A DNA stretch of 64,000 nt from Cephalotus follicularis (lineage: Eukaryota > Streptophyta > Magnoliopsida > Oxalidales > Cephalotaceae). The stretch is from NCBI GenBank assembly GCA_001972305.1, contig BDDD01002942.1:65420-129419 (forward strand), given 5' to 3'. The first letter of the stretch is position 1. The number at the start of each line of letters is the position of its first letter. The notes under the pieces were generated by a model. The model saw only the letters and a list, made by a program, of their open reading frames with translations. It searched no databases and was not told the origin of the DNA. Positions 2,785 to 63,682 of this stretch are shown in pieces. The position numbers and the translations under genes are program-made.

Positions 2785-3060
2785 CAGTCGGCTGGAATCC
2801 TTACCAGTCGACTGTTCTGGGTCGAGCATACCAGTAGTCGGCTGGTTCCTTCTACCAGTCAGCTGTCCATTAGGCAGTCGGCTGTTGTCCTTCAACAGTC
2901 TACTGTTACCACCCATTTGAAAACATTACCCAGGTTACACTTCCCGCTACTTTCTGGACAGGATAAAGTATGAACAGTCGACTGCTTTCCATTGACAGTC
3001 GACTGGTTTCATTGAGTATTCGGCTGTCTTCCTTCGATAGTCGGCTGCTCTGCGAACCAG
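2785..3060. repeat. CAGTCGRCTG motif array, first cluster of the solo LTR
   Basis: Repeated CAGTCGGCTG, CAGTCGACTG and CAGTCAGCTG words recur, several at 19-21 bp spacing, with unrelated spacers. In minus-strand translation they produce a spurious repeat of S-R-L tripeptides, which is not a protein feature. Confidence 0.75.
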
Positions 3061-3857
3061 TAGCATGCAAATCGATGATCATGGTAAGCAGATAATTCGA
3101 GCTCAGGGAGAGGAATACAACTACAGGTTGCCATATCATCCATATAACAGCTCATCCAACATACATTTCATCATGCAAGCCAAAACCATGTGAAGTTCAA
3201 CATGCATGCACAATGATCACATTTGATTCTCAGTAGCAAGCATAACAATGGGAGACAGTAGTAACCACATTCTAAATTTAGTAGCAACAACTCACGCAAT
3301 CAGGCGTTCAAATCATAGAGCATGCAATAATTTTAAACTCAAAATACCATTACAACTTCCCCTACCTTTGATTCCAAGTTAGGAATCTGTAAGTCCACCT
3401 CTTTGTGTTCCAACAGTAACGTTTTGATCTCCCCAGAAGCTCCAACTCCAATCCCAGTAGCTCCAAGGACAGCCCAACAGCTCCAACCCGAGCTCCAAAC
3501 TTCAACAATCATGAAACACTCTCCTTTCCTCTTTTCTTTGTGGTTTCTCTCTACTATTCTCTCTGGTTCTTTGTCCTTTCAGTATCCGGGCGAAGGAGGC
3601 GAGGAGAGAGACGTTTTATGCAGAGGGTTCTCTTCTTTCTCCCTTAGCTCCCTCACATGGCACTAAATGCCACATTCTCTCATTCACATGCATGCACACA
3701 CTCACAGGTCAAATTTCTCAGCCCCATGAGGTTTGCATGATTCCCAGGTGTCCCTTACATCCTTTCCTTCGGCTGCATGGAACACAGATGGCACCTACTT
3801 CCATCTGTCAACTGTGGCATGTGATTTCTGCCACATGCAACAAAATAGAGCATGATC

Positions 3858-4009
3858 CAGTCGGCTGCCTACACCCAACAGCCGGCTGCTCGCCTGGAAG
3901 ATCGTTACCACGTGGCTCGATAGTTGGCCAGTCGCCTGGTTCATCCCACCAGTCGACTGCTCCCATATGCAGCCATCCAGTCGGCTGGTCTTCCGTGCCA
4001 GTCGACTGC
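3858..4009. repeat. CAGTCGRCTG motif array, second cluster (U3 side)
   Basis: At least five related decamers lie close to the end that starts the LTR in its own orientation, as in other family members. Spacing is less regular than in the first cluster. Confidence 0.7.
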
Positions 4010-4190
4010 CTCCAGTATACTTACCAAGTAGTCACACTCCTAAGTAAAATAATCGATTTAAAGTCAACATCATCGTAGTTTGGGAAAACATCATCAAATT
4101 TGGAAAAATCCATCATTTATTAATTTCACAAATAAGGTACATTTACATTGTGAAATTACAATACATGAAAATTACGGGCATTACAAGTAT

Positions 4191-6079
4191 TGCCTGTAAA
4201 TTTCATTGCAGTAAGTCTCACAATACTTGCAGTACTGCCCACATAACTAATAGTGTTGCGAGTAATACCATATTTTAGTGTATGCCCAACAACATTTTAG
4301 GTATGCCAGCAATGCTTGCATTACCTGCAACCCTTGCATTTTACATATAAATGTTAAACTTTTTAACATTATCAAAATGTAATTTCTTGGGTCAAGCCAA
4401 GCATTTGATCATCTCTAACTCTTATTATGTAGATCCGGCTCATAGATCAACATCCTTTAATAATGTCAAGTGCTTACCCCAATGAATATACTGACAACCT
4501 TTACTTGATTGATAACAACATATTAATCCATTCTTAATGATCAATATGCAGTAATTATAACTCTTATAAAATCAAGTAAGTTACATACTCCTACTTTCTT
4601 CTTATACACATTTAGACCCCCTTTATGCTTACTTTAATCTGTTAAAAGATTTAAGTGAAAAGCATAATTATAATGGACTTCAGGAAAACTGAAATTCCAT
4701 TTTGGAGTCGATATGTCATATAGCTGTTCTTTGTAGTTCGATGGAATCTCATCCATCTGATCCACCTTTAGATACCTTCATAGTGAATCATAAGCATCTC
4801 TCAGGTGCCCGCATATTATCATATCAAACTTCAGAGAACATGTGTATAAAATTAAGGTTATTGCACAAGTGCATATTTGTGTTGCTTATGATTTCTCATT
4901 CAGCTATGTTTTACTCCCACTACTTCCTGTTAAGAGAAATGAATTCTCCTAATGGGAAGCAAGGTCTGAGATGAACTTTTCATTCTCAAACAAGGGTCGT
5001 AAAACAGTATCCCGCTATTTACTTTCGTACACTTCACAAATCAACATCCCATGTTCCTTACTTAATAATTATTTGAAGGGTATTAACTAAAAGGAAAAGG
5101 GAAAGTCTGTAAGACAGGGACTTCATTATATCTCATCATATAAGATACAATATGCTCTTCCTTTAACAGTAAATCTCATTCTGTTTGAGATGAAACAGAA
5201 ACTTACTAAATATTTTTCTCACATTCTCGATCTCATCAAGATCTATCAAAAATCATTTCAGTTCCTTTTGATAATTCATATTTGAATTCTTTGAACTTTT
5301 CAAAAGAATTCACACTTGTACCTTTTCAAGTACAAATGGTCCTTACTTTAATAAAGGACAAGTAAGGATGTGAATTACATAAAATCACCATGAGCACCAA
5401 CTATCAGTAATCCACGCAGAATCATGTAATGAACATAAGACTGACAGCTTTAAAGACTTCTCCCAATGTCGTACAGAGGGAGATTAAGTCATGTTGCCTA
5501 TAAGACAGAATTCCCAGGTCGGATTGATAATCCAAGATATGGATATACCAAGGATAAATCCACTCACAAATTCTTATCTCACAGACTTGACTTAGTCTAT
5601 ATGGCTGAGGGTATAGATTTACGGTGTATCCCCTAGGCTCACCCAACATGGCTACATCATTAACTATGCCCTTCACATCTCATGTATTAATCAATATGCA
5701 TCTAATAAGTCCATGCGAACCTTGTGTGTGCACAACAAATGCGCATAAACAAATTAGCATTAATATTGATTATTTTGGTGATTATATCAATCATCTAATT
5801 TTCCTTTTGGTTATTTATTTGATATTTAAGTACAATAGAAAAAGTCTATGTACTATTTAAGTACAAACCAAACTCTTGCCTTTGAAGAAGGAATCACCCT
5901 ACTTCATTGGCATAAGTGTTGTCTTTGATACAGGATAGACAGGCTCGTCTCTCGCGATCTCGGATAAAACATACTTAATCACCAACCTGACCATCTGAAC
6001 CTATCAACGTGACTTGCCGATTCATATTGTCAATATCAAATAACTGAGATAATCCTTCTCAAGGTTTGCTCAGAATTTT
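4191..6079. other. C1 internal region, decayed and non-coding
   Basis: The sequence is AT-rich with no ORF that resembles a retroelement domain. By orientation this should be the pol part of C1. No RT YVDD, integrase or RNase H motif could be read in any frame, so pol is either absent or beyond recognition. Confidence 0.5.
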
Positions 6080-6376
6080 AGGGCGAAGCATACAATTAAG
6101 TTTTCAGTGCCTATCTTCACCACAGTGAAAGCGCTGACCCTTCATAATCAAGAATGTGTTTAATAACCTAAGTGATTTCATTATTTCCATTAGAAGTCTT
6201 CTTGTCAGGCAAGCTCTTTTCATAGGTGCCTTACCCTTTTGCGAATTAGAGGACTCTAACGTGCGAAAATTATGAATCATATGAATTGAGACCTCAGTAC
6301 TAGTAAATATGCTTTGTCTGTTTATACAACTTTTGTTAGAGAAGCAGAAATTTAGAATAACTACTTGTATTCTCAT
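6080..6376 (-). pseudogene. Relic of copia gag, zinc-knuckle region
   Basis: A minus-strand frame reads a lysine-rich stretch (QKGKAPMKRACLT) followed by RFHCGEDRH-stop-KLNC. This matches the spacing of the CCHC knuckle CxxCxxxxHxxxxC of plant copia gag proteins, which bind the genomic RNA. The first Cys is replaced by Arg, and a stop codon falls where family members usually have Trp. The rest of the gag is not readable. This is the only protein homology I find inside C1, and it supports assignment to Ty1/copia. Confidence 0.55.
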
Positions 6377-7753: not shown

Positions 7754-7758
7754 ACTCC

Positions 7759-10367: not shown

Positions 10368-10372
10368 ACTCC

Positions 10373-10867: not shown

Positions 10868-11331
10868 CCGAAGTCTCACTTCAGGTTTTTTTTAGACCTC
10901 TACCTTTGAGGTCTGCCATCCAGCATCGAATTCTGACTTTGAACTTTTCCTCTAAGGTCTGCCTTTAAGCAATGAGGTATGCCCTCTTCCATTGAGGTCT
11001 GCCTTTAAGCAGCGAGGTCTGCCCTCTGCCTCCGAGATCTGCCTATACGCAGCGAGGTCTGACCTCAAGGTCTGACCTTCAAGGAGCGAGGTCTGACCCC
11101 AAGCACCGAGGTCTGCCTTCAATGAGCGAGGTCTGACCTTCAATGAGTGAGGTCTGACCTCAAGCACCGAGGTCTGCCTTCAAAGAGCGAGGTCTGACCT
11201 CAAGCACTGAGGTATGCCTTCAAGCACCGAGGTCTGACCTTTGAGGAGCGAGGTCTGACCTCAACCTCTGAGGTATGCATTTAAGCAGTGAGGTCTCACC
11301 TCTTCCTCTGAGGTCTACATCATCTCATGAA
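10868..11331. repeat. 20-21 bp periodic GAGGTCTGACCTC array in the C1 leader
   Basis: About 18 units carry the core GAGGTCTG(A/C)C, which in its best form GAGGTC-T-GACCTC is a 6-bp inverted repeat around one base. Core-to-core distances counted by eye are nearly all 20 or 21 bp, with variable 7-9 bp spacers. In element orientation the array lies downstream of the primer binding site, in the transcribed 5' leader ahead of gag. Confidence 0.85.
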
Positions 11332-11980: not shown

Positions 11981-11982
11981 TT

Positions 11983-14488: not shown

Positions 14489-15045
14489 AAGACGTCGATG
14501 TCTTTGACTGTTACTAGCCGTTGTAAGTGCACTAACTAGCCGTTCCGTGTTTCCCGGGTCAATCATGTTGAAAAGACGTCGATGTCTTCATAAATGCGTC
14601 GATGTCTTTGCTGGGAATTTGTCCAGGTATTTGAAGTTATGAGCATCACATCGACTTCTTCTTCAAGGGTCGATGTCTTTTCTGGATTTTGTAGATTGAT
14701 CTAGAAAGACGTCGATGTCTATGGTAAGGGATCGATGTCTTTGCATGAATGTCAATGTCTTTACAAACAAGGATCATTGTCATCACTTGAATTTGACCTA
14801 TAACTTTGGCACCTAAAGACATCGATGTCTTCTTGATAGGGATCGATGTCTTTTGTACAGACGTCGATGTCTTTGCTTGTAAGGATCGATGTCTTTGCTC
14901 AAATTTGACCTGTAACTTTGTGCACTAAAGACATCGATGTCTTTCTTCAAAGGGATCGATGTCTTTCTCCAAATTTGTCCTGTAACTTCGATGGCTTTAA
15001 GACGTCGATGTCTTCTTCAATGAGGATCGATGTCTTTCTCCTTGC
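14489..15045. repeat. SIRE1 U3 array of GACGTCGATGTC motifs (3' LTR)
   Basis: About 17 copies of (A/G)TCGATGTCTTT-type words occur, often as the near-palindrome AAAGACGTCGATGTCTTT. They come in pairs whose cores are 20-22 bp apart, separated by longer non-repeat sequence. The array is placed upstream of the TATA box. Confidence 0.8.
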
Positions 15046-15798: not shown

Positions 15799-17109
15799 TC
15801 ATGCGGGAGGAGGATCAGAATCGGAGGCAGAGTCATCGCCCGAAGTCTCTTCGCAAGTGTCAATAACTTTGGAAGCCGCGAGTTTTTGTTCCAGTCTTTT
15901 GAGGCGTCGTTTGGTGACTTTTAGATCATAATATATAGTATCATCGACACCGTCAAAGTCGGATCGAATGGTTAAGTGATCTTTCTCCAAGTTATCAATC
16001 TGCGAATTAACTTGCTTAAATTTTCCTTCGAGGGATGCCTCCAAAGAATCAAACCTAGCAGTCATAAACTCCATCATCCTATCAAAATTAGTAGTGGATG
16101 AGGATCCTTGAGCTTGAGCAGGTTGAGGTTCTTCGTGGGCTTCCCATGGGGGAATCTCCTCTTGTTCTTCTCGCTCGACTCTTTGCCCTTGGTCACTCTT
16201 TGGGCAATAGGTCCAAATACCTCCTTGCTTTTTCCAGCCCATCCAATTCAATGTGCTTTTATTATAGGTGTCCTCCTTATTTAACTTTGTGCCAATCTCT
16301 CCTTCAAGCCGAATTTTGTGATAATGAAAGATTTTGGTGAGAATGGATCCGAAAGGGAGAATGGATTTCTTTTGAGTAAATGCTCTCACCATGGTGTGGA
16401 GCATAAGAAGGGGATAGCAAAATTCGATCTTTGAGATGATGCACCACATCAAGAATGCTTGCATCCGGTAAAGTTTAGCGTAGCCACCACCGGTGGGAAG
16501 AAGTTGATGCACAATGAGGTGATGGAGAAGTCTATGATCCACAGAAAGTTTATTGGTGCAAAGAGCCATAGTAGGGTGAATGTTTGGATCGTTGGGATAA
16601 AGGATGGACAAAATGTGATTAGGGTGAAAACCCTCTACTTCTGGCCATTTTTTGGATTTGAAAATGTAAATTCCGGTGTGTGGTATGTGAAGGATAGAAG
16701 CTAGAATCCTAGCATCTAAGAAAATACGCTGCCCTTTGACAGTAGATGAGAGAGCAAACTGCTCATGAGGGCTAGAGACGATCCTAAGGTTCATATAGAA
16801 CTCTTTGACCAATTTTACATAAAAAGGGTCCTGAATTTGGACAAGGGGAATGAGGTGTAAGTCCTCAAGCCAGGAGACAAAAGAAAACTCACTAGAACAG
16901 AAGGAAAGATCAATGTTTCTGCCTCCCATTACACGTTTGTCCATAAAAACAACATTTTGGAGTGGAATTTGCTCTTCGGATTCGGAATCCGATTCAAGAG
17001 CTGGGTCAAGGGAAGGTTACCTAATGTCAAGCCTACATTTTTTATCAGATTTCTTAGGCTGGGAGGAAGAGGCAGCCTTCTTAAGAGCAGTTCTTTTTGT
17101 TCTTGGCAT
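15799..17109 (-). pseudogene. SIRE-type ORF3 (envelope-like/unknown), one in-frame stop
   Basis: From an ATG at 17109 (MPRTKRTALKK) one frame runs to 15799, about 435 codons, broken only by a TAA at 17017-17019 after residue 30. The N-terminus is basic, followed by a Ser/Glu-rich acidic stretch. A central region about 200 residues long (VKLVKEFYMNL, SVDHRLLHHLIVHQLLPTGG) resembles the plant transposon protein domain found in SIRE ORF3s. Then come a predicted coiled coil (DSLEASLEGKFKQVNSQID) and an acidic tail ending in PPPA. SIRE elements have an ORF at this position described as envelope-like; its function is unproven, and I see no clear signal peptide or transmembrane helix in the main frame. 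Confidence 0.75.
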
Positions 17110-17610
17110 TTTGACAAACACTTGGTAGACACAAAAGACAAACACAGAGAATGAGAAAAATAGCAGAAATGGAAGTGAGAAAAACGAATTTTGAGGACGA
17201 AAGAGAGTTAGAGAGATGATATACGAACTATTAGAACAATTTTGAAAGAAAAAGAGAGAGTAGAAATTTTTTTGAAATGTCCAGAAATAGGGTAAAGTGA
17301 GATATGAACATGAAGTCGACGTTTTTATGAAAAAAATTGATATCAAGGTGAAAGACGTCGACGTGATTCCAAAGACGTCTACGCGTTCTTTAAAGAAGAG
17401 CCAGAAAACGATGCGTTTCAAAAGGCATCGACGCGTTTTAAAAGAAGTCGACGTGTTTCAAAGAGAGTTAAAGAAATCGATGTTTTGTAAAAGAGATCGA
17501 CGTGTTTTTGTAAAAATAGAACAGTAACAAGCAAAATACAATAATAACCAACAATCAATCATCACATCAAATGAGCATATAATTAAATCAAACGTTCAAA
17601 CAAATAAACA
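17110..17610. other. SIRE1 intergenic region between pol and ORF3
   Basis: Non-coding spacer of about 500 bp. Its central part is the TCGACG motif array listed separately. The minus strand near 17130-17270 is T/C-rich, like a leader for ORF3. Confidence 0.6.
17312..17506. repeat. TCGACG motif array between SIRE1 pol and ORF3
   Basis: About eight words of the form (G/A)TCGACG or GTCTACG occur, and several core-to-core distances are exactly 20 bp. It is a second array in the same element, distinct in sequence from the LTR array, and lies just upstream of the ORF3 start on the minus strand. Confidence 0.75.
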
Positions 17611-22269: not shown

Positions 22270-23326
22270 GACCTTAGAGGATTCTCCTCTTTTACAAGTG
22301 ATTGTGAAATGTGTTTACAAGATAACCTCTCAAATAGGTTTGATATGGCTTATACAGAACACAATATGAATCTCACAGAAGAACTCAAGATATGGAGCTT
22401 TGAAGCTTTTTAGAACACTATGGAGCACTTGAGCTTTTTCACACTAGAATGCTTGAATTTGATTTTTCTCTTGATGTTGTGTAATTCTTGTTTAATTGTT
22501 GTAATTCAGTTGTTATACTTCTCTGAGGTTTGAATCTTCCTTTTATAGGCAGAAGAGTCTTATAGCCATTGCATAAATCCTGGAAGCTTTTGATTTAAAA
22601 ATGTGTTGATGCAACTTTGATTTTTGTCTCTGCTGGCAGAAAGACGTCGATGTCTTTGGAAAGGCGTCGATGTCTTTGACTGTTACTAGCCGTTGTAAGT
22701 GCGCTAACTAGCCGTTCCGTGTTTCCCGGGTCAATCATTTTGAAAAGACGTCGATGTCTTCATAAAGGCGTCGATGTCTTTGCTGGGAATTTGTCCAGGT
22801 ATTTGAAGTTATGAGCATCACATCGACTTCTTCTTCAAGGGTCGATGTCTTTTCTGGCTTTTGTAGATTGGTCTAGAAAGACGTCGATGTCTATGGTAAG
22901 GGATCGATGTCTTTGCATGAACGTCGATGTCTTTACAAACAAGGATCGATGTCATCACTTGAATTTGACCTGTAACTTTGGCACCTAAAGACGTCGATGT
23001 CTTCTTGATAGGGATCGATGTTGTTTGTACGGACATCGATGTCTTTGCTTGTAAGGATCGATGCCTTTGCTCAAATTTGACCTGTAACTTTGTGCACTAA
23101 AGACGTCGATGTCTTTCTTCAAAGGGATCGGTGTCTTTCTCCAAATTTGGCCTGTAACTTCGATGGCTTTAAGACGTCGATGTCTTCTTCAATGAGGATC
23201 GATGTCTTTCTCCTTGTAATTGATTTTTGCCTTTTGTGAAGCTTTCTAATAACTTGCACATCAAGTAAACTTGTTAAATGTAAATATGTTATCATCAAAA
23301 CTAGGATTGAGACTAAAACGTCAACA
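22270..23326 (-). repeat. SIRE1 5' LTR, truncated and fused to gag
   Basis: This copy matches 14113-15154, ending CGTCAACA at 23326. At its inner edge the match to the other LTR stops at CAAGACC (22266-22272), and the gag start codon follows at once. About 257 bp of LTR, the primer binding site and the whole leader are absent. The TATA box at 22539-22549 is retained. Confidence 0.85.
22641..23210. repeat. SIRE1 U3 array of GACGTCGATGTC motifs (5' LTR)
   Basis: Counterpart of the array at 14489-15045 with one additional copy near 22660. Core spacing inside runs is 20-22 bp. Several sites keep TCGA in both copies, while a few differ (for example ACATCGAT against ACGTCGAT). Confidence 0.8.
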
Positions 23327-24790: not shown

Positions 24791-25857
24791 ATGCAAACCA
24801 ATGAACAAGTATGTATGCAAACAAAAGCAAATAAATAAACAATTTAAAGAGAGAGAGTTAGAGAGAGTGCAAACACGATTTTAGAGTGGTTCAGCGTAAC
24901 TCTTGCCTACGTCCACTTTTCCCAAGGATCTCCTTGAGTTTCCACTAATCTCCGAATAAAATTCCGGGTGCTATTCAGTACACCTTTGTGATTGAACTCA
25001 ATCACTTACAACTCTCTTGGGTTCACTCTCCAATTTCTTTTAGGGTTCACTCCCCTATTACAATCAAAATAGATAAAATAGTGTTTCATGCTAAAACCTC
25101 TCAAAAGGCTGGATTTTACAAGATAAAAATGCTCAATTTAAGTGAGAACAAATATGGGCTAAGATATAAGACAGAAGCTTTTGACATGAACTTTGATTTT
25201 TGAATGCTTGTGGTATGATCTCTTGAATGATATTTTATTTGATGTCACTTGTTGTTCTTCTTATTCTTTCTCTTCAAAACACCTTTGTATATATATGTTT
25301 TTACCTCAGAGATCCATTGGGTATGTCCTGAAACTTGGTGCATCAAAATGGCGCATTAAAACTCTGTCAGAAATCTTTTCAGCCGTGCAAAGCGTCGACT
25401 GTCTCCTTCAAAGCGTCGACGCCTATGTGACCGTTAGGTATTTTAATTTGAATTTTCGAGTCAAAGCGCAGGCGTTCTGGGTGTAGGAGTCGATCGTTGC
25501 CTCAAAGCGCAGACGGTTAGATCAAAGCATCGACGCTTGTGTCAAATTGAATTCCATCTTAAGTCACTGGTTTAATCAGCAGACTCCGTGTGTCAAAGCG
25601 CAGACGCTTGAATTTAGGCATCGACGATTTGAGCATTTGTTCCTCTACTCGAAGCACTTCATCGGTAGACGCTTTGTTCATTGTCCCGACTGTTGCACAA
25701 AGCGCTGACGCTTTATTTCTGAGCGTCGACGGTTTGACCTGTTTCTGCGGTTTTTCGTGTTGTTTTGCGCTTTCCACGTTTTTCTTGCACACAAAAAAAC
25801 TTGGTTAAACACAAATATGTTATCATCAAAACTAGGATTGAGACAAAAATGTCAACA
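24790..25857 (-). repeat. SIRE2 3' LTR
   Basis: It resembles the SIRE1 LTR at two places: TTTAGAGTGGTTC and the 'CTTGCCTACGTCCACTTTTC' block (24881-24940), and the end GTTATCATCAAAACTAGG to GTCAACA at 25857. The middle differs, with its own TCGACG array. The left boundary is approximate. Confidence 0.75.
25390..25732. repeat. SIRE2 U3 array of GCGTCGACGC-type motifs
   Basis: About ten words of the form AAAGCGTCGACGC, AAAGCGCAGACG or GCATCGACG occur. The best form is a 10-bp perfect palindrome GCGTCGACGC. Several core distances are 20-21 bp. The array occupies the same place in the LTR as the different array of SIRE1. Confidence 0.75.
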
Positions 25858-27699: not shown

Positions 27700-27813
27700 C
27701 GGTCGACTGTCCTCAAGAACAGTCGACTGCTTTTGTTGAGTAGTCGACTGCTTTGCCTTAGCAGTCGACTGGATAGGGTTGAGTAGTCGACTGTCATGAA
27801 GAACAGTCGACTG
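27700..27813. repeat. CAGTCGACTG array, six sites at 20-22 bp
   Basis: Six (C/T)(A/G)GTCGACTG sites occur with successive core distances 20, 21, 21, 22 and 20 bp. The spacers differ from each other (for example TCCTCAAGAA, CTTTTGTTGAG), so only the decamer is repeated. Confidence 0.9.
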
Positions 27814-28844: not shown

Positions 28845-28923
28845 CAGTCGACTGACTTCACTTGGCAGTCGATTGTCCTACCACGCAATAGACAGTCGAC
28901 TGCCCCCCTGTGGCAGTCGGCTG
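28845..28923. repeat. CAGTCGACTG sites near the LTR 5' end
   Basis: Four sites (CAGTCGACTG, CAGTCGATTG, CAGTCGACTG, CAGTCGGCTG) correspond to the first, U3-side cluster of the family. Confidence 0.8.
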
Positions 28924-29565: not shown

Positions 29566-29672
29566 CAGTCGACTGGTTGGTTTATGGAAGGGCAGCCGAC
29601 TGCCATAGGGTAACAGTCGACTGGTTGGTTCATGGAGGGACAATCGACTGTCACAGGGTAATAGTCGACTGG
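29566..29672. repeat. CAGTCGACTG array in the G1 U3
   Basis: Five sites (CAGTCGACTG, CAGCCGACTG, CAGTCGACTG, CAATCGACTG, TAGTCGACTG) alternate between about 27 and 21 bp core distances. They lie about 270 bp upstream of the TATA-like sequence. Confidence 0.85.
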
Positions 29673-30581: not shown

Positions 30582-30694
30582 CAGTCGACTGTTGAGCCTA
30601 ACAGTCGACTGCTCAATGTAAATAGCCGACTATTAAGGACAAACAGTCTACTGCTCAACGTAAACAGCCGGCTATTCTTATGAACAGTCGACTG
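30582..30694. repeat. CAGTCGACTG array, six sites at 20-21 bp, in G1 5' LTR
   Basis: Core distances are 20, 21, 21, 21 and 20 bp. Variants include CAGCCGGCTA and CAGTCTACTG. It lies downstream of the putative TATA, so it is probably transcribed. Confidence 0.9.
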
Positions 30695-39409: not shown

Positions 39410-39538
39410 CAGCCGACTATAAAAGGGTAACAGTCAATTGGTTGGTTTATGGAAGGACAGCTGTCTGCCACAAGGTAACCGTCGACTGGTTGGTTCGTGG
39501 AGGGACAGTCGACTGTCACAGGGTAACAGTCGACTGGT
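39410..39538. repeat. CAGTCGACTG array in G1 3' LTR, U3 side
   Basis: Counterpart of 29566-29672. It includes variants such as CAGTCAATTG and CAGCTGTCTG, and two intact CAGTCGACTG cores at the right end. Confidence 0.8.
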
Positions 39539-40445: not shown

Positions 40446-40559
40446 TAGTCGACTGTTGAGCCTAATAGTCGACTACTCAATGTAAACAGCCGACTGTTAA
40501 GGACAAACAGTCGACTGCTCAATGTAAACAACCGACTATACTTATGAACAGTCAACTGT
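40446..40559. repeat. CAGTCGACTG array in G1 3' LTR, second cluster
   Basis: Counterpart of 30582-30694, six sites at 20-21 bp. Some differ by C-to-T or G-to-A changes (CAACCGACTA, CAGTCAACTG). Confidence 0.85.
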
Positions 40560-41839: not shown

Positions 41840-43501
41840 AATGAATAAAATATACATTGAATTGAAATTTATGCTTAATTGTCCTTTTTGATTGAGCTAA
41901 TTGCTAATATTGAGTTTATTGAGGACTTGGTTGATTGGCCTTAAGAAATAAAGACTAAATTAGACTTATTGGAAAGGAGTTGAATCTGTCACGTGGACGT
42001 CGACGCCATGAACCCAGAAAAGAGTTCAGATATGTGTTTGTTGCAAGTAAATGAAAGACATGAGTGTCCTTCAATCTGGACAGGTTTGAATCTCGTGTCA
42101 ATTGTAAGAGGGGACGTGTCTCACATGAGGAATCATGTAGCATGAAACACCACCTATCAACTGAAGAGGAAGCTTGGTGTCCTAAGCACCTGCAACCTGT
42201 AAAAAAGAAGAGAAAGAAAACAACAGTGAGTTAACGGAGTTAGAGAGAGAAGAGAAAAGGTTGGAGTTCTGAGTTAGAGGATTCAATAAACTACTGAGAC
42301 GAATCCTCTATATCAGCTACTAAGAGAGTAAATTGGAATGTTAGAATCAGTGGAAAGGAGGGAAATTATTCTGGAGTTACATGTTGGAAGTGAAGTGTTC
42401 AAAGTGAGTTTTGAAGCTTGAATTATACTGGTAAGCTATTGATTTGATTTCAGGGTTGATATTATAGTTAATCAACCATATATAGCTACCGATTCTCGTT
42501 TTGTAATTGATGGTTAACATTCAAAATATAGATTGATTCTGGAATTGTAAAGTGGAGTTGAGTTGAAGGAGTATTGGAACTTAGAAAGAAGAATCAACCA
42601 ATTGATTCTGGGATAAGCGTTTGAGGTAGGGTGTATGACATGATTATGAAAATATAGCATGTATATTGTGCTCGCATGTTAATATTAAATTGTTAAGTTC
42701 ATATTATGAGTTGGTATGAGTATGGTGGAATAGACTGTGTGTGCTATTATGCTGAGAATAAGGTGTAAACCCAATAGATACACATTAACGCCTTACTGAG
42801 ATAGTCGATAGTTTACCTATTTGCGTTTGATTCTCGTCAAAGCCAAGGAAGGATACCGTTGACATTTAAAGCTACTATCTTTGAAAATGTCGACGCTAAT
42901 AGGTAACGTTGATGCGTAAGGTTCCTACCTTAACGCATCGATGCTAAAGAGAAGTGTTAACGCTTAAGGTTCATACCTTAACGCTTTGACGTCAAATAGT
43001 AACGTTGACGCCTTTATACACACGTCGACGCCCAAGATAGACGTTAACGCCATACTGGACCAATGGATATTCGGTACCATTTTTACTTGAGTGTACTATT
43101 TACTGCTTGATCCTTGAACTATTAAATTGTTATGCAATGATATATTGCCATTTCTACTGTTATTGATAGTTTATATCTATCAAAGTGATTGTAAATGCTA
43201 TTGTTCTAAAGTGTTTTCAAGGATTTAATGCCATATACATAATTAAGGTTTCAACTATTGTTTTAAAAAGAAACCTAGTGCTATTGTATCAGTTTCTCCA
43301 AGTGAAGAGTTTTATTGTTTTCTTAAATGAAAACCCAGTATAGTGCTACTGTTTCCTTAAAATGGGAACCAAGTGAAGTGTTTTATTGTTTTCTCAAAAT
43401 GAGATTTTATCGGATTGTTTTACTGTTTTCTCAAAAGAAAACTATTGTTACGTTACATATTATATATGTAATATTGCTATATTGAGTGTACTGTTTGTCT
43501 C
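41840..43501 (+). repeat. LTR-X, second segment
   Basis: Resumes LTR-X after G1. It has blocks related to the G1 LTR (for example CTGGGATAAGCG near 42609 against CTGGGATAGCG in G1) but a different motif array. It is interrupted at 43501 by a solo LTR with duplication GTCTC. No coding capacity. Confidence 0.7.
42798..43045. repeat. GTYGACGC motif array in LTR-X
   Basis: About ten words such as GTCGACGCTAA, AACGTTGACGCC, AACGCATCGATGC and CACGTCGACGCC occur at irregular but often 19-22 bp spacing. It lies where G1-type LTRs have their second CAGTCGACTG cluster. Confidence 0.7.
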
Positions 43502-46158
43502 TGTCACACCCCGAGTTTCAATTCCATTAGAGACAAGCATATATGGTGATATCAGAAATAAATATAATCCAGCATTCTCATTCAACAATTCAATAACATA
43601 AGCGGAAGCATTCATATCTGGATTATAAAATAAAAGTCATCCGCACTCAGCCCATACTACGTGCAAGTACAACCCAATAATATCCTTATACATAAGGAAA
43701 GTACAACAGGAACACGGAGTGTGAACCGTTCAATACAATTATAGTACAACATGAGAATAACAACCTTAATAGAAACTCTCCAAAAGCTCCAACAGCACCT
43801 CCCGTACGTCTTCGCTTAATCTGAAATTGTAGGGGTTAGCCGTTGTCCTCACTTGGCTAAGTAGGAAGATAATGCATGATAAGGAATATATAAATGCAAC
43901 ATGTATGACATTTTATATTGAAATTAACATAATTAAGTATTCCAATATATAAGCAACCATGCCAAGTGGCCATAGACAATACAATGCAATAATACCGCAC
44001 AAGGGTAAAATCAATCAGTACAGTGGTTTGGGTGTCACATGTCGCTAGCTCCTAGCACCAACTGTGCACCACCTATCTATCACCCTTCACTCCGGAGATG
44101 ATAGATCAGGTCAATTACTACCGGCATTAGCAGGCAGTTTAACAATCAAGATCTGCATTGTAGACAGTTTGGGTGGATACTCTAGACAACTCCTGGCACA
44201 TAGGACCACCTCCGTAGCCAGTGATGTCTCCTATCACTCGACTAACGGCAATAGCATAGACAAAAAATTCAATCAATTCAGTAATATTACATAAATTGTT
44301 AAAATGTAATATAGGGTTGTTTTCTTTAGAAACATATAACAATTCAGTAATCGTACATCTCCTAAGAGGAAAACGATATTCAGTACAGTAATAATACCAC
44401 TCATTGGAGGAAAAACAATAATCATTTGACAATATACATTTCCATTTTGAAAACCGTAAGGAACTCATATTTGTGCTTAAAGCACTAGTTTGTTCAATCA
44501 TTTGAAAATAAGGAGCAGTAGTGTTAATGAACACCTAGAACAGTATATCCAATTATAACAGTAGCATATACAGTAAACAGTAAAGCAGAGTAGCAATCAA
44601 AGGGTTCAATAAGTCATTGTATACCCTAGTCACTCTTGTAAAATTCTCACAAGGAGTATATACATTGTTTAAATTCTGAAATGTAATTATTTAAGGCCAG
44701 GATTGACTGTTCTAATCATCCATATGGAGGCCAGGTTAATCACATTCAAATTGAGGCCTAAATAGGACCTATATCAGCAATTTAACCCAGGACAGTCGAC
44801 TGCTCTCAAGAACAGTCGGCTATTTGGTTGAGTAGTCGACTGTTTGTTCTTAACAGTTGACAGGTTCGTTTGAGTAGTCGACTGTCATGAAGAACAGTCG
44901 ACTGCTTTGCCCAGAAAAGAGCAAGCAGTAGCAGGGTAAGCATTCAATGTCCAAATACTAACCCAATCAACACATGCATTCAAACAGAAAATCAACCATA
45001 CATGATATGCATAATATATCTTCCAAAAACATGTCATTACCCCTACCTTAAACGCTATCCCGAAATCAATTTGGATTGATTTCACTCCTTGAGTTTCCAA
45101 GACTCTTTCACAAACTTAGCCTTCCAATCTCAGCATAAATGATATATACAATGCATGCTCGAAGGTTCAGTCATGTAATCAGTAAGTTTAACTAATTATC
45201 TGGTTACAATTACTACTCCAACAATATCTTATCACTAGTTCATTAAGCATCAATTCTTACATTTAACAACATCTCTCCATTAATCAACTCCAATTTCAGC
45301 AAGTATTAAGTTTGCATGTTACAGAGGGTATGTATAGAGGTGATTAGAATACATATACTTATTGACAACCATAACAGCAACTATAATTCAATTTAGAGGC
45401 TTATAATCTTAACTCTTCTTGAACCATTTACCAATTCTATTTCAATTCCAGAAAATGCTAACCATAGTCATGTTAACAGGAGGCATTCTAACATTCTCTT
45501 AGTTAAATTATCAACAAACCACAACATCAGTGGTGAGTTCGGATTTGGGAACTTACCAGGAAAATCCAAAGCTTCCAAGTTTCTTTGAACACCCAAATAC
45601 TCCAAATGCAACTCCTACAATCCTCCAACAAGCCTCCCTCTATCCTTAGTGTTTTCTAACTCTCAAAACACGCAGGCAGCTTCTGTTTATAAGGGAAAAG
45701 TATTCACAATATCGTTTTCATTCTTTAGCATTGTCATTTAACATTTCTCCCTTCTCTCTCACACATGCATAACTTCCTCTCACATTACTTCTTTCAATTC
45801 TTATGTAGCAGGTTAGCAGGTCTGTAAAGCACATGCAGGGCACTCCTCCTACATGTTGTGGCAGCTGCTGTCTCGCATGACACCTGTCTATCATGCACTT
45901 CCCTTGGCTATGTCTCACATGCATGTACATACACCTGTTCTGTACCATTCCAGTCGACTATCACACCACGCATCAGACAGTTGACTGTTACCCTATGACA
46001 GACGGCTGTTTGAGCTGGTTTTAGGATTCCTCAAGTTTTTTTTACCAATTGAATTCGCAACCACAATTCATATAACAATTAGACATTAAAATTCAAGTAA
46101 GTGCATATTTTATTCATCAAGAGTACAATATACACGGGTTGAATTTGCGGTTATTACA
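43502..46158 (-). mobile_element. Solo LTR of gypsy family A, nested in LTR-X
   Basis: TGTCACACCCC to GCGGTTATTACA, 2657 bp, flanked by GTCTC at 43497-43501 and 46159-46163. Same family as G1 on the opposite strand. ORFs inside are chance. Confidence 0.9.
44793..44904. repeat. CAGTCGACTG array in solo LTR 43502-46158
   Basis: Six sites at 20-22 bp with the same order of spacers as the array at 49303. One site has decayed to CAGTTGACAG. Confidence 0.85.
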
Positions 46159-46216: not shown

Positions 46217-47966
46217 TGTAATACCCTATTTGTTCGTATGCATGTTTGCGGACGTTTAATCTATTTGTTTTCGGGCTTTTTAATTTGTTTTGTTATGAAG
46301 TCTGTTTACCCTGGGCTGACTGATACCAGCCTGAACTTTGGGTATGTTATTATGTATATGTGTTTTGGTAAAGATTATGTTTATTGGTTGTGCTTATGTC
46401 ATTTTAAATAAATTAACTTTCATAATTTCTAATTTTACTATTTTACAACTAATTAAAATGACTTTTTATTTTATTTAAAATTCTTTTCTTTTCTCTTCCT
46501 CTTATCTCTCTCATCCGACTCTCTCTCCTATCTCTATCTCTCCCGAAAATCTCTCCCTCTCTTAACTCCCTCACGCGTTTTTCCTCTTCTTTACTTATTC
46601 TAGCCGAAATCTTCTCCCCTTTTCTGTTTAAGAATGTGGTTATCATTTGTCTTATGCCATCCGTTTCTATTTTTGCCTGGTTGTTGCCATGTCTTGCCAA
46701 TTGGGAGTCTTCTGTGTTCTTGTGCAAGTATATTCATCAAAAGTCAGGTTTGTGCTATGTAATCTCAGTCCTTTGTTATTCTGTTGGGTTGTACTTTTCC
46801 TTGGCAGGCATTAAGGTTGTATATTTGTTTTGTTTTCTCTTCTCTTTTGTTCTTTTTGTACAGCTGGGTGATCATTGAAACTGTGGGGTCTCTCATACGG
46901 TTTCTGTATCTATAATACCATTGCAGGTTAGTATTCATGTGCTGTTATGGTCATTTAGTGTTGTATGAATTCTTTTGCATGTCTACATAGGTTGTTAGAA
47001 TTTGGTTTTGCTTCCAGCCACATAGTATTTCTATCATGGTTTATGAATCTGTTAATCAGTTCTTGGGCATCCGTATAGGTTGTAATTTGGTATTAAAAAA
47101 CTGACAGTGGTTTTTGATCGAAAAATTGGTCTATGAATATGTATGCATATGTTTAGAAGTCACTCTTTCTCTTTGAGTTTAGCCACTGGTCACATATTCA
47201 TTTAAATTCCATGTTCTTCTACTATTTAAATGCCATACAATGTCTTATGTAAATGTTTATAGGCCTCTAGTATATTGCTATCCATGTTTTGACAAGTTTC
47301 TGCATAAAATTGTAGAGTTTCTATTGTTCTATCGTCCAAAACAGTCGGCTGTTCTCTTGGACAGTCGGCTGTCTAGCCTTGAATAGTCGACTGTCTGTAT
47401 GATTAGTCGACTGCTTTGCCTTGCACAGTCGACTAGACCCCTGTCACAGTCGACTACCTGCAGTCCAGTTTGTGTAGTCGGCTGGCCCTGTTGGATAGTC
47501 GACTGCCAAGCTTCCAACAGTCGGTTGGAGCTCTGTAACAGTCGGCTGGTTTGTCCAGGAAATTTCTGTTTTCAATTTTCTGGGTCAGTTTGTATTTCAA
47601 ATTAGTCGGGGTCTGTCCTAAACACTGTAATATTTTTGTTTTATGCCCACAATGATTTTCAGACCCTTATAAGAATTATTTTGTGTCTTTTAGATTGTTG
47701 TGCTACGAAGGGCGGTTATATATATATGTATCAGTCTTTTCGTAAGTTATTTTCTGTGATCGCTCAAGGTATGAATACTTCGTTCTTTGACACTCTCTTC
47801 GATTTTATGGAAAAAAATTCAGTTTTTTTTTTTTTTTGATATGTTCCTTCAGTTTTATGAACTCGGTTATGTTTTATGATTTTGATATGATTATGAAAAT
47901 AAAGTCTGTTTTGACATTTTGCGAATTGAATGTTCCTGACTTTATACTTATGCTATGATATATTAT
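46217..47966 (+). repeat. G2 5' LTR, first segment
   Basis: TGTAATACCC start; non-coding; includes the motif array at 47342-47549 and a T15 tract near 47823-47837. Continued at 50730-51120 and 58379-59014 after the nested elements. Confidence 0.8.
47342..47549. repeat. CAGTCGRCTG array in the G2 LTR, ten sites
   Basis: Ten sites occur with core distances about 20, 22, 20, 22, 21, 28, 21, 22 and 21 bp. The LTR that carries it starts and ends differently from family A, so the motif is shared between families. Confidence 0.88.
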
Positions 47967-49302: not shown

Positions 49303-49415
49303 CAGTCGACTGCTCTCAAGAACAGTCGGCTGTTTCGATTGAGTAGTCGACTGTTTTCTCTTAACAGTCGACTAGATAGGTTGAGTAGTCGACTGTCATG
49401 AAGAACAGTCGACTG
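49303..49415. repeat. CAGTCGACTG array, six sites at 20-21 bp
   Basis: Core distances 20, 21, 21, 21 and 20 bp; five sites keep the GTCGAC core, one is GTCGGC. Confidence 0.9.
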
Positions 49416-50471: not shown

Positions 50472-50550
50472 CAGTCGACTGTATTCAACAGGCAGTCGAC
50501 TGTCACACCACGCATCAGACTGTCGACTGTTGCCCTGTGACAGTCGGCTG
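50472..50550. repeat. CAGTCGACTG sites, U3-side cluster
   Basis: Four sites: two CAGTCGACTG, one CTGTCGACTG and one CAGTCGGCTG. Equivalent to 28845-28923. Confidence 0.85.
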
Positions 50551-52514: not shown

Positions 52515-52520
52515 AAATTT

Positions 52521-59014: not shown

Positions 59015-59018
59015 GTTA

Positions 59019-59030
59019 TGGTATCAGAGA
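59019..59030 (+). other. G2 primer binding site (tRNA-Met)
   Basis: TGGTATCAGAGA, one terminal mismatch from TGGTATCAGAGC, four bases after the LTR. Confidence 0.88.
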
Positions 59031-59183
59031 ATAGGTTTTGTTTCCTTAGAATACCTGACTAGGTTTGACCTATGAGATTGGGTAGACTTTGGGTTAGGCT
59101 ATTTCGATATGGTCTTTTCGATATGTCTTATGTTTTGGTTTTTGTTTGCTTTTGATATTTTATGTTTCGATATCTTTTCATAG

Positions 59184-60322: not shown

Positions 60323-60325
60323 TAG

Positions 60326-61531
60326 GTACTATTTCAGGTTTTATTTCTGTTGGTAACCGTAGGGCTTATGTTTTATATGATACTAGATCGACCCACTCGG
60401 TTGTAGTGAGGTCTTTTGTTCGGCATCTTAGTATGCCTTCACAGTTGCTTGATCCCACTCTGGTTCTTTCGACCCCTACGGGGACATCTGTTATGATATC
60501 TGAATGTTTTTATGCTTGCCCTCTTGTTTTTGATGATCGGATTAGTGATGCGGATCTTTTTCCTATTGATATATATGACTTTGATATGATTCTGGGTATG
60601 AATTGGTTGGTTCACCATCGAGCTATGATTGATAGTCACGCTCGGAGGATTCTGTTTGGGGATGTGGATAGACCTGATTTTATTTATTAGGGTTCACAGC
60701 CAAGAAAAGAAGTTAAAGTTGTTTCTGCTTTGAAGGCTCAAAAGTTGGTAGCTAAGGGCACTGAGGGTTTCTTAGTTGTTGTGAAAGACGTCTCTAAGGT
60801 TGAGCCTCACCCTGAAGACTATCTTATGGTTCGAGAGATTGCATATGTGTTTCCAGAGGAGTTACCGGGGTTGCCACCACAATGGGAAGTGGAGTTTACA
60901 ATTAATCTCATTCCTGGGACGGCGCCTATATCTAAAGCACCTTATAGGATGGCACCAGTTGAATTACAAGAGCTGAAGGAACAGTTGCAAGAGCTGTTGG
61001 ATCAGGGTTTCATTCGGCCTAGTGTTTCGCCGTGGGGTGCTCCGGTTCTTTTTGTGAAGAAGAAGGACGGGTCTATGAGGCTATTTATAGACTACAGGAA
61101 GTTGAATCGGATTACTGTTCGGAACAAATACCCTTTGCCTAGGATTGATGACTTATTTGATCAACTCCAAGGTGCTCGGTATTTTTCTAAGATCGATCTG
61201 AGATCTGGATATCATCAGCTTCAGATAAAGGACGAAGATGTGCCTAAGACTGCTTTCCATACTCGGTATGGGCATTATGAGTTTCTGGTGATGCCTTTCG
61301 GACTTACTAATGCACCGGCAGTTTTCATGGATCTAATGAATCGGGTGTTTCATGAGTTCTTGGATCAGTTTGTGATTGTGTTCATCGATGATATCCTTGT
61401 GTATTCCAAGTCGAAGGAAGAACATGAAGAACAGCTTCGTATAGTGCTGGTATTCTGAGGGAGAATCAGCTATACGCGAAGTTTTCAAAGTGTGAGTTCT
61501 GGTTGGAACGTGTGGCGTTCTTGGGTCATAT
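60326..61531 (+). pseudogene. pol: G2 pol: protease and RT, cut by nested LTR
   Basis: Protease: LYDTRSTHSVVV (family D-T/S-G-S/A, here D-T-R) and [81 protein letters not shown] and the catalytic [15 protein letters not shown] at 60688-60690 and a frameshift near 61450 precede [20 protein letters not shown], where the next LTR interrupts at 61532. The rest of RT, RNase H and integrase lie beyond the window, if present. Confidence 0.88.
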
Positions 61532-62803
61532 TGTCATGCCCCGAACCGCGAGAGTAAACCCCCACGATCCGACGCGTGATATATACCATTCGTTCAGTCC
61601 ATTCCTCATTTTATTATATACCATCTGTTCAGTCCATTCATCATTTTATTCATACTCCAGAAGTGCTATATATATATATATATACAAAGCTTCAAATTAA
61701 AGTCATATTACATCAGCGGAACGATCAATTCAAATAAAAATTAACTCTTAAAATCTCCCAAAAATTGGGCATGATGTATTCATTTATCGGACTAAACACC
61801 CTGTAAAGAAAAACACATTTATATATCTCCACACTCCCGAAGGAGGAATCAATAGTTTATATATATACATGGGGCTCAGCCCTCAAATCCACAACTAAAC
61901 CAGTATCATATCATTCTAATGCCTCAAATGATGGGTCTGTCCCTGTTTAATACATCAACACATATATCATAAGCACTGCCACATGTCGGCAGGTCGATAG
62001 CTGAAATGAAACATCTCTTATACATCTTTAGATTTGTCTCTTTACATAACAAGTCTTATATATAAGTACAGTTCAACTATAAACATAAGGCCCCTTTTTA
62101 CGATTCTTTATAAGTAAACCCATATCAATTACCATAAGTAAGATCATATACAATATGGCAAATCAAAACATGCTACAGAGAACCCATCCATCTCAGCCTA
62201 TCTAATTTAATACAATTCATATAAGTAAATCCATAACATGATCATAACGAAACCATATGCAATAACAACACAATCCCAACACCACTACTATCCAAGATCC
62301 AGCTTAAGTATCCATCCATCTCGATCCATTTCACTGTGATCCATCACCTGGGTCTAAGCCTGACCCATTCCGCATACAGGGGAAATGGGTCAGCGACATA
62401 ATATCGTGTAGGGTATACTATGTCTATGTATGCAACAGTTATAACAGTATGCAATGTATGCATCAATACAATAGTGTGACAGTGTAACAGTAGGCCGTGT
62501 AACAGTACAATGCACAGTGAACAGTAATGGTGTATAGTCACAGTGGCAGTAACAGTAATAGTGTAGTGCAGTATATCAGTGTACAGTTGCGGACAGCTTC
62601 GATATACCAACCGTCTCTAAGCGGGGTATATCTAGCTAGTCCTAATCACATCCAAGGCCATAGGCCTGCAGACACTCAGTAATCAGTCAGTCACAGTACA
62701 TGGGAACAAACAATCCATAGGTCCATCCCACTATCTATGCACTCTCTGAGTCGTAGATGAGTATGGTTGAGATAACATTGACCACACAGTGTTTACAGTA
62801 CGG

Positions 62804-62965
62804 CTTGTCCTCTATGGTCCCAGCCTATATTATTCCGATCGTCCACTATGGTCCCACTCTATATTGTTCCGGCCGTCCACTATGGTCCCAACCTATATTG
62901 CTCTGGCCGTCACTATGGTCCCAACCTATATCGTCTCGACCCTCCACAGTGGTCCCAACCTATAT
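62804..62965. repeat. Tandem repeat, about 33-36 bp unit, about five copies
   Basis: Units contain CTATGGTCCCAACCTATAT followed by a variable TTGTTCCGGCCGTCCA part. Copies differ by substitutions and small indels. The plus-strand ORF over it has a corresponding repeat and is judged a by-product. Confidence 0.85.
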
Positions 62966-63059
62966 AATGTGGTCTAACATTGATAACCTTCATGACGGAA
63001 ATGAAGGGTATGAATGGGTTGTCTCGTTTGGTCTCAAACAGTATCAGTCAAAACAGTGA

Positions 63060-63220
63060 TCATACAATACCCGTACCCGTAACAGTATTACAGTAAATAG
63101 TAGAAATGATAGGGACCTAAAGGATCAATGTAAGATCCACATCCGTCAAAACAGTTATAAAACAGTTTTCAATAACAGTTTTCAGTAACAGTATCAGTAA
63201 CAGTTTAGTAACAGTTGGTT
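63060..63220. repeat. Cryptically simple AACAGT-rich stretch
   Basis: Many AACAGT and CAGTAACAGT words cluster here; similar clusters lie near 62460-62580 and 63830-63890. Low-complexity sequence rather than a regular array. Confidence 0.6.
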
Positions 63221-63517
63221 GGTCACTATCGAGTTTGTAAAACAATGGAGAGGAAGTCCAACGAGATCATCCGCGTCCAGAGGTCCCAAAGGAGCTATCC
63301 TAACCATTCTTGATAATCGTTTCTATAAAAACTCTTTGTTGCACTTTCTTCAAGAATCACTTTGAAAACTTGATTTAAGATTCAACAACAGTGTTAAAAG
63401 ATGATTCGCATAGGATACAAGGCCTTAGGGAGGCTTCCTATGGAATCAATTTAAAGAAGAAACAGTTTGAATTTAAAAACAGTGAGAAACAGTGCCATTT
63501 CGCAAAACAAGGCACTA

Positions 63518-63682
63518 AGCGTCGACTAGATTAGTTTAAAAGTGTAAAGTGTCGACTATTCAGTTTAACACACAAAAGAGTCGACGGTTTTAGAAAACAT
63601 AAGTATAAAACATCGACTACTCAGTTTAAAGGTAATGAAAGCATCGACGGGTCAGTTTTTGAAAGGAGTAAAGTGTCGACAG
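63518..63682. repeat. RTCGAC array, six sites at about 30 bp
   Basis: GTCGAC or ATCGAC cores recur with distances of about 30, 29, 32, 31 and 32 bp, each preceded by AA(A)G(T/C) or similar and often followed by TCAGTTT. The spacing is about three helical turns instead of two. Confidence 0.85.

Follow-up and report, generated by a model that had tools for sequence, protein, structure and literature searches.

Palindrome arrays and the elements that carry them

The window analysed here is a stretch of 64,000 nucleotides from Cephalotus follicularis (contig BDDD01002942.1) that contains arrays of short palindromic sites. In the initial annotation these arrays were ascribed to unrelated LTR retrotransposons. 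The description holds for the comparison of Ty3/gypsy with Sirevirus elements, but not within either group: LTR-X and E2785 are related to family A, and SIRE1 is related to SIRE2.

On the basis of sequence comparison, the Ty3/gypsy group comprises (i) the LTRs A1-A5, (ii) the LTR at 2785 (E2785), (iii) a fragment at 46-48 kb and (iv) LTR-X, an A-type LTR that is for the most part colinear. The gypsy A element encodes proteins with Retrotrans_gag, RVP_2, RVT_1, RT_RNaseH, Integrase_H2C2 and SH3_Tf2-1 domains (Pfam), and is not a Sirevirus. A single element, flanked on both sides by CAGTC, has A2 and A3 as its LTRs. The gypsy A arrays are clusters of LTR palindromes with divergent flanks, as are the repeated motif (RM) boxes of Sireviruses. 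The arrays of this group are as follows:

2785..3047, minus strand: E2785 LTR cluster 1, 10 CAGYCGRCTG-like sites, 7 of the 9 gaps being 19-21 bp
3858..4008, minus strand: E2785 LTR cluster 2, 6 CAGYCGRCTG-like sites
27700..27813, minus strand: gypsy A1 LTR cluster 1, 6 sites
28845..28923, minus strand: gypsy A1 LTR cluster 2, 4 sites with gaps of 21, 27 and 21 bp
29566..29671, plus strand: gypsy A2 (5' LTR) cluster 2
30582..30694, plus strand: gypsy A2 (5' LTR) cluster 1
39410..39536, plus strand: gypsy A3 (3' LTR of the element of A2) cluster 2
40446..40558, plus strand: gypsy A3 cluster 1
41997..42006, plus strand: lone exact ACGTCGACGC of LTR-X, near the cluster-2 position
42886..43051, plus strand: LTR-X array of ACGTYRACGC type, near the A-type cluster-1 position
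44793..44904, minus strand: gypsy A4 LTR cluster 1
45951..46008, minus strand: gypsy A4 LTR cluster 2, one 21-bp unit shorter than in A1 and A5
47342..47548, minus strand: array of 10 sites in another A-like fragment, which lies between A4 and A5
49303..49415, minus strand: gypsy A5 LTR cluster 1
50472..50550, minus strand: gypsy A5 LTR cluster 2

The second group contains SIRE1 and SIRE2, identified as relatives by sequence comparison, with the following features:

14491..15041, minus strand: array of AAGRYRTCGATGTCTT type in the SIRE1 LTR at 14.1-15.2 kb
15799..17016, minus strand: env-like ORF of SIRE1, PF20167 (putative plant transposon protein)
17309..17507, minus strand: internal SIRE1 array between pol and the env-like ORF, a degenerate form of the LTR motif
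22641..23208, minus strand: array in the SIRE1 LTR at 22.3-23.3 kb
25389..25734, minus strand: SIRE2 LTR array of AAAGCGYMGACGCTT type, in an LTR location similar to that of the SIRE1 array

SIRE1 shows several Sirevirus characteristics: (i) Ty1/copia domains (RVT_2, rve, gag_pre-integrs, Retrotran_gag_2), (ii) a multiple PPT ahead of the 3' LTR, although with two copies only (AAAGGGGGAGA at 15166 and 15510, minus strand), and (iii) palindromic boxes that precede TATA in the LTR and are also present upstream of the env-like ORF, where the copies are degenerate (2-4 mismatches). The SIRE1 box AAGRYRTCGATGTCTT lacks the CGG-CCG signature of Sireviruses, as does the Tnd-1 RM in PMC2829016. Downstream of the array in the 22.3-23.3 kb LTR, 780 bases into the LTR, lies TATAAAAG.

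Two arrays were placed in neither group:

10954..11316, no strand assigned: C1 array, GAGGTCTGACCTC-like, a 20/40-bp tandem repeat
63516..63682, no strand assigned: last array, AAAGYGTCGACTR-like, with sites 29-32 bp apart

C1 resembles a plain tandem repeat, its spacers being conserved (identity of 0.52-0.55). A Pfam search of 4101-12580 revealed no family around it. The observed/expected CpG ratio is 1.30 in the SIRE1 LTR array, 2.68 in the env-upstream array, 1.43 in SIRE2, 1.81 in LTR-X and 1.55 in the last array, compared with 0-0.54 in the measured flanks and 0.61 in the window. The gypsy arrays are weakly enriched in CpG (0.69-1.04 in the A arrays versus 0.51 for the whole A2 LTR; 0.67-0.72 in E2785) and C1 is not enriched (0.40).

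Periodicity and spacing

The periodic arrays are real. We compared 5-mer autocorrelation at lags 20-22 with dinucleotide shuffles in 22 regions, 14 array-bearing and 8 array-free. None of 200 shuffles reached the observed value in A1-A5, E2785, C1, SIRE2, both SIRE1 LTRs, the stretch between SIRE1 pol and the env-like ORF or the fragment at 46-48 kb, together 12 of the array-bearing regions, which bears out the phased arrays of the initial annotation. The corresponding counts were 10/200 for LTR-X and 11/200 for the last array, whose best lag triplet was 29-31 (0/200), in agreement with the spacing of about 30 bp originally assigned to it. A mild excess at lags 20-22 is also present in a few array-free regions; the array-free counts were 98/200 for the copia LTR at 12582-13732, 6/200 for the copia LTR at 14-1212, 67 and 77 of 200 for the LTR pair 51120/56967, 5/60 for SIRE1 coding sequence, 4/60 for the gypsy A internal region and 1/60 for 58400-62700. 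The remaining array-free region, 52515-56966 (0/60), was rejected, since the coding of its 150 N as A created an artefactual value, with about 140-150 matches at the top short lags.

Exact words in the window number 24 for CAGTCGACTG, 11 for GACGTCGATGTC and 4 for GAGGTCTGACCTC. GCGTCGACGC and GTTGACGCC, which had been proposed as the array motifs of SIRE2 and LTR-X, each occur as a single exact copy, and the arrays themselves hold degenerate versions. TCGA-to-TCGA spacings of 20, 21 and 22 occur 16, 16 and 8 times, with an expectation under uniform placement of about 0.83 per bin. Successive site distances were 20-22 in 64 of 102 cases over the 13 arrays tallied, a tally made without A3-A5 and one SIRE1 LTR and from hand-edited site lists (one weak SIRE1 site removed, and the 46-48 kb fragment given two more sites).

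A motif-free scan for dyads gave a much weaker signal. Among the regions compared with 40 shuffles, only A2, A3, the region labelled int, E2785 and C1 had an excess at lags 19-23 reached by no more than 0-1 shuffles; among those compared with 12 shuffles, the counts were 0/12 for the gypsy A internal region, which is array-free, and 1/12 for 4400-10900. The scan was low in power and an array-free region scored equally strongly; its outcome speaks against a claim based purely on symmetry.

The suggestion that the sites share one face of the helix is weakly supported. For the 34 of 102 distances outside 19-23, R was 0.39 at a period of 10.5 and 0.42 at 11 (exp(-nR2) of 0.006 and 0.002), the gaps being partly homologous copies; R was also 0.30-0.35 at periods of 10, 20.5 and 21. 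Gaps of 27-28 bp recur (7 of the 102 distances) and are not compatible with a single helical face.

Mutually exclusive motif sets in related LTRs

In both groups, related LTRs carry arrays at roughly one position, with motif sets that are mutually exclusive. The X motif has no match in the A LTRs at up to 1 mismatch on both strands, and the A motif was not found in LTR-X; the SIRE2 motif has no match at up to 3 mismatches in the SIRE1 LTRs, nor the SIRE1 motif in SIRE2. LTR-X sites do not match A sites column for column. All four exact copies of ACGTYRACGC in the window lie in LTR-X, and since one of them is located about 1 kb from the other three, near the cluster-2 place, local tandem copying is not a ready explanation.

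Conservation of cores between elements and after insertion

Within most arrays the cores are alike and the spacers near chance, in accordance with the dissimilar spacers described in the initial annotation, from which C1, with spacers conserved as in a tandem repeat, departs. Within-array identity was 0.70-0.91 for cores (chance 0.26), a value inflated by the choice of cores by motif, falling to 0.32-0.62 at offsets 6-10 from the centre and 0.21-0.55 at offsets 11-15 (chance 0.26).

A column test was performed on the five aligned gypsy A LTRs, with cores defined on one LTR and the remaining four compared among themselves. Agreement was found in 917/1020 cells of core columns, 1952/2775 of spacers and 47766/65349 elsewhere. 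Of the CpG cells, 63/71 were retained in cores, 24/32 in the non-core parts of clusters and 359/716 outside clusters; without A3 the figures are 41/44 versus 242/455 (Fisher 4e-8), the cells not being independent. Rotations of single LTRs reached the observed value in 188/2508 (A1), 29/2524 (A2), 13/1056 (A4) and 6/2481 (A5) cases, not all of which are extreme, and in the rotation test the downstream spacers of A2 scored 0.90.

The cores of gypsy A are conserved between elements, and this conservation is absent after insertion in one element. Between elements, cores differ 2-5 times less than the rest: in nine pairs, with cores always defined from other rows, the core/rest ratio was 0.19-0.51 (e.g. 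5/100 versus 637/2386). Between A2 and A3, in contrast, 14/100 positions differ in cores and 156/2486 elsewhere (p 0.006), and this LTR pair departs from each of the nine between-element pairs (9/9; Fisher p 2e-4 to 9e-7), although the latter share rows and are not independent. The sample is small: the gypsy post-insertion rate comes from a single element, and all five LTRs of the alignment lie in one window. The LTR pair of SIRE1 shows a tendency in the same direction (13/272 versus 18/769, p 0.059), with gap columns excluded and sites defined from that pair itself.

After insertion, cores do not change faster than other sequence at CG (4/36 versus 28/131, p 0.23) or at CHG (9/67 versus 36/287, p 0.84), but they do at other bases (15/85 versus 159/3185); differences were counted both ways, and part of this last class may be T/A from C/G. 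The lower CG figure leaves room for some protection of cores after insertion. The greater divergence of cores after insertion, together with their lesser divergence between elements, indicates that selection kept the cores in the replicating lineage and not in inserted copies.

Arrays as probable docking platforms

We consider it probable, at roughly 0.6, that the arrays act as docking platforms for a sequence-specific, probably dimeric, trans-acting protein, as cis-regulatory sequences kept while the element replicates. Sites for a dimeric DNA-binding protein had been among the ideas first put forward, and fit best with cores that are conserved between elements and spacers that are not. According to this model, (i) the platforms would sit in LTRs (presumably in U3 in the gypsy elements), with a further one immediately before the env-like ORF in the Sirevirus, (ii) each palindrome would be a putative site for one such protein, (iii) 3-20 sites about 21 bp apart would place neighbouring dimers side by side, and (iv) the bound array would drive transcription, or keep the LTR from being silenced, during replication. 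Small duplications and deletions would add or remove units, after which the spacers would drift and the cores would be held by selection on replicating copies. A different motif set at about one place in related families would be expected if the binding partner had changed, and we infer that the motif differences follow such changes. Resemblances to known sites of plant transcription factors (DREB/CBF, W-box, auxin response) were not used as evidence.

Neutral turnover of tandem repeats, in which the periodicity would be a legacy of slippage that duplicated units of about 21 or 42 bp, is an unlikely general explanation. TRF detects 21-, 42- and 48-bp arrays, the array positions are inherited among the A LTRs, A2 and A3 contain additional core-bearing sequence at cluster 2, and A4 lacks one 21-bp unit; for C1, with its conserved spacers, turnover may be the whole story. 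It would account for spacing, but not for cores that outlast spacers between elements yet are unfavoured after insertion, and it leaves unexplained the presence of one motif in gypsy A clusters about 1 kb apart. On present data it is contradicted for gypsy A because of the contrast between post-insertion and between-element change.

It is improbable that the arrays act mainly through RNA or single-strand hairpins, with folded transcripts feeding small-RNA production or regulating the RNA. An RNA fold z of at most -3.0 was obtained for 8/14 array pieces (-8.3 for A1 cluster 1, -5.1 for A2 cluster 1 and for LTR-X) and for 0/6 control pieces, and an excess of small RNAs is reported for Sirevirus palindromes in PMC10760457 and PMC5311732. 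The other six array pieces, however, gave only -0.24 to -1.67, including the sole SIRE2 piece (-0.42), the sole env-upstream piece (-0.24) and one of the two SIRE1 pieces (-0.46), which speaks against the hairpin as a general role, and service as a silencing-RNA template would not by itself select for core retention.

We also regard as improbable an element-encoded, VANC-like anti-silencing binder, for which the Sirevirus candidate is the PF20167 env-like ORF: motif sets differing between related LTRs and sites upstream of this ORF as well as in the LTR match such a binder, but the structural model of the ORF product has a mean pLDDT of 44 and no usable fold, searches of PHROGs and of PDB sequences gave nothing and no match at E up to 1, respectively, and the coding strand of gypsy A, the strand scanned, showed gag-pol Pfam domains only, with no candidate binder seen. 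Gypsy A also contains a 155-aa ORF without a domain (35775-36242).

A bolder form of the docking model, possible but doubtful, is that two superfamilies of a single plant converged on one grammar, an LTR palindrome per 20-22 bp, with a family-specific word that is replaced wholesale; the array would then be an address that keeps families apart, each calling its own activating or anti-silencing factor, and would permit escape from host silencing.

Relation to known systems

One of the two kinds of element, the Sireviruses, is already known for such arrays. The paper by Bousios et al. 2010 (PMC2829016) describes RM boxes as short, high-copy palindromes that form CpG-rich stretches ahead of TATA within the upper LTR half, with further copies upstream of the ENV gene; their sequences are element-specific, some being centred on TCGA (Vitis CGGTCGACCG, Tnd-1 ACAATCGATTGT), and they are given as Sirevirus-specific and missing from classic Ty1/copia elements. 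In contrast, similar arrays are found here in a Ty3/gypsy family, and that text, as available, gives neither a rule for spacing nor an instance of differing motifs at homologous positions, and does not compare post-insertion with between-element change. No report of LTR arrays of this sort in Ty3/gypsy elements was found in the open-access literature.

Palindromes of maize Sirevirus LTRs (Bousios et al. 2016, as given in parts of citing papers) are likewise clustered in the LTR cis-region; they are small-RNA hot spots with the consensus CACCGGACNNNGTCCGGTG. According to PMC10760457, this palindrome is abundant also in maize Helitrons, and the cis-regions of TEs are often arrays of repeats, sometimes palindromic, which narrows the novelty of the present arrays. 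Retand elements (PMC11963269, available in part) also represent plant Ty3/gypsy elements with family-specific tandem repeats, but these are located between pol and the 3' LTR and are described there without a palindromic core. In VANDAL transposons, element-encoded VANC binds non-coding tandem motifs that are short, fast-changing and family-specific (PMC5735166), and the arrays of the window likewise have family-specific motif sets in non-coding tandem arrays. VANDALs differ in that they are DNA transposons, their motifs (YAGTATTAY and AGTTGTCC/AGTTGTAC) are not palindromes, and the binder is known and element-encoded (PMC5735166).

A scan of viral contigs for paired CAGTCGACTG yielded one stretch, and a gag search on viral contigs confirmed no relative among 13 pattern matches. 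Short interrupted repeat cassettes, reportedly present in Arabidopsis, may bear on LTR arrays.

The occurrence in Ty3/gypsy elements of a layout regarded as a Sirevirus speciality, together with a signal of selection on replicating copies, makes the purpose of the boxes testable. Comparison of the change between the LTRs of a pair with that between elements may be a general way to find functional cis-elements of retrotransposons, and related LTRs that differ in their motifs (A versus X, SIRE1 versus SIRE2) allow one to ask whether the partner changes with the motif.

Elements carrying the palindrome arrays

The window is plant DNA composed of nested LTR retrotransposons, among them the following elements:

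about 14.1-23.3 kb, minus strand: SIRE1, a Sirevirus; it encodes Ty1/copia gag, integrase and RT domains and also has an env-like ORF (PF20167)
29372-31984 (LTR A2) and 39236-41836 (LTR A3): LTRs of the gypsy A element, with Ty3/gypsy domains

The first 11 matches listed for the SIRE1 gag protein share 85-92% identity with it over 61-96% of its length, the named species being Cephalotus follicularis, which makes this plant or a near relative of it the probable host. The polypurine junction AAAGGGGGAGATTGTTG is located at 15166 (minus strand) in SIRE1 and at 25869 in SIRE2, the other Sirevirus. The SIRE1 LTR at 22.3 kb apparently lacks roughly its final 150 bp (22200-22314 versus 13940-14114); it seems shortened, since the other SIRE1 LTR and SIRE2 match each other past the end of the SIRE1 LTR-pair match.

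The gypsy A element, which is flanked on either side by CAGTC, contains an exact primer-site-like word, TGGTATCAGAGC, located 3' of its 5' LTR. It was inserted close to the start of LTR-X, another array-bearing LTR; the LTR start TGTAAAAACCG is found just before the insertion (about 29331-29371, cf. 41837-43501), with CAGTC on either side. Additional A-type LTRs are A1, A4 and A5.

The arrays had been described in the initial annotation as common to unrelated LTRs, which holds for at least two unrelated groups, one in each superfamily, and fails within them. LTR-X shares four colinear patches with the A-type LTRs (X 5-46, 352-423, 565-830 and 1578-1664), plus one short match that is not in order, and the four same-order patches assign it, on sequence grounds, to the A-type LTRs. 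At E up to 1e-3, E2785 (the LTR at 2785) shares nothing with them except a 46-48-bp patch and the array units; the arrays are among the few parts still alignable there. SIRE1 and SIRE2 are alike over 75 bp where their LTRs begin (88%) and in a second stretch at the far end (79%). Two arrays were not placed in an element: a Pfam search of 4101-12580 gave no family for C1, and that of 61300-64000 gave nothing beyond an RT tail for the last array. Downstream of a gypsy RT, at 62807-62965, lies a 34/67-bp tandem repeat (GTCCACTATGGTCCCAACC...).

The A-type LTRs also contain a block (about 41425-41565 in A3) with homologs in A2 (31571-31711), A5 and E2785. It includes the word TTAGCCGAGTGAGGACAAAGGCTAACCCC in A3 and E2785, and a slightly different form in A2 and A5, as well as a short inverted repeat (TTAGCC/GGCTAA), and falls within the 60 columns where the A-type LTR alignment is best conserved (0.94). 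It may serve as a promoter, an R-region or a processing signal.

Periodicity and motifs

The arrays proved to be real. TCGA-TCGA pair distances in the window peak at 20-22 bp, and a 5-mer autocorrelation at lags 20-22, for which no motif was chosen, exceeded all 200 shuffles in 12 of the 14 array-bearing regions. The observed value was reached by 10/200 shuffles in LTR-X and by 11/200 in the last array, whose best lags are 29-31. Among the eight array-free regions, three, all LTRs, were clearly negative (67-98/200), and a mild excess was found in the copia LTR 14-1212 (6/200), SIRE1 coding DNA (5/60), the gypsy A internal region (4/60) and 58400-62700 (1/60). The signal in one array-free region was rejected as an artefact of N. 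A dyad scan backed the arrays only partially.

The motifs differ between families. LTR-X has ACGTYRACGC sites near the place of cluster 1, one of the two groups of core palindromes in the A LTR, and one exact copy near that of cluster 2, with no column-for-column match (X columns 219 and 1573-1837; A columns 254-371 and 1555-1680). The window has four exact copies, every one of them in LTR-X; at one mismatch, seven further sites occur in SIRE1 and SIRE2 and none in A1-A5, and the A motif is absent from LTR-X at up to one mismatch. Just outside the LTR-X start (29260-29330) are the X-like words CGTCGATGCC and GATGACGCC, perhaps a further cluster in the X internal region. With up to three mismatches allowed, the SIRE2 motif has no site in the SIRE1 LTRs and the SIRE1 motif none in SIRE2, and the internal SIRE1 array resembles the SIRE1 LTR word (2-4 mismatches).

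In the arrays of gypsy A, E2785 and the 46-48 kb fragment, wherever C stands for T in one palindrome half, this gives GCCGAC on the sense strand; the mirror GTCGGC is absent from that strand in their site lists. Part of this strand-biased pattern is inherited by position.

Conservation of the cores

In an alignment of five A-type LTRs, with cores defined from one LTR and scored in the other four, identity was 0.899 in cores, 0.703 in the spacers between them and 0.731 elsewhere. CpG was retained in 63/71 core cells, 24/32 cells in the rest of the clusters and 359/716 outside. Rotation tests on single LTRs were less extreme, A1 by itself not being significant (188/2508).

Differences within the LTR pair of one insertion arose after insertion, whereas those between elements also include changes during replication of the lineage. 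A2 and A3 differ at 14/100 core and 156/2486 other positions; across the nine pairs of different elements, the counts run from 5/100 versus 637/2386 to 14/90 versus 706/2317. This contrast was found for all nine pairs (Fisher p 2e-4 to 9e-7; the pairs share rows). The gypsy A cores were therefore retained in the replicating lineage, without being favoured in the inserted copies. The two SIRE1 LTRs show the same direction (13/272 versus 18/769, p 0.059). The post-insertion core excess is confined to bases outside CG and CHG (15/85 versus 159/3185), with none at CG or CHG; because double counting of direction blurs this pattern, we do not claim methylation decay as its cause.

Possible role of the arrays

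PMC2829016 describes palindromic repeated motifs, with CpG islands, in the LTRs of Sireviruses and also upstream of ENV. The SIRE1 layout closely matches that account, but lacks the CGG-CCG signature. A maize follow-up on small RNAs is cited in PMC10760457 and PMC5311732. According to the former, TE cis-regions are often arrays of repeats, sometimes palindromic, and the maize Sirevirus palindrome also occurs in Helitrons. We found no report of such LTR arrays in gypsy elements in searches of open-access papers, including passages of PMC11963269, PMC3212565 and PMC6911290, which is weak evidence of absence.

The arrays could alternatively reflect an anti-silencing factor encoded by the element, RNA hairpins formed by the palindromes, or neutral turnover. 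We consider protein docking the best mechanism, with a probability of about 0.6. The closest known mechanism is that of VANC (PMC5735166, PMC10398659). The same or a similar word recurs in clusters that are separated by about 1 kb in gypsy and by a few kb in SIRE1, which suggests that separate clusters may be recognized by one trans-acting reader.
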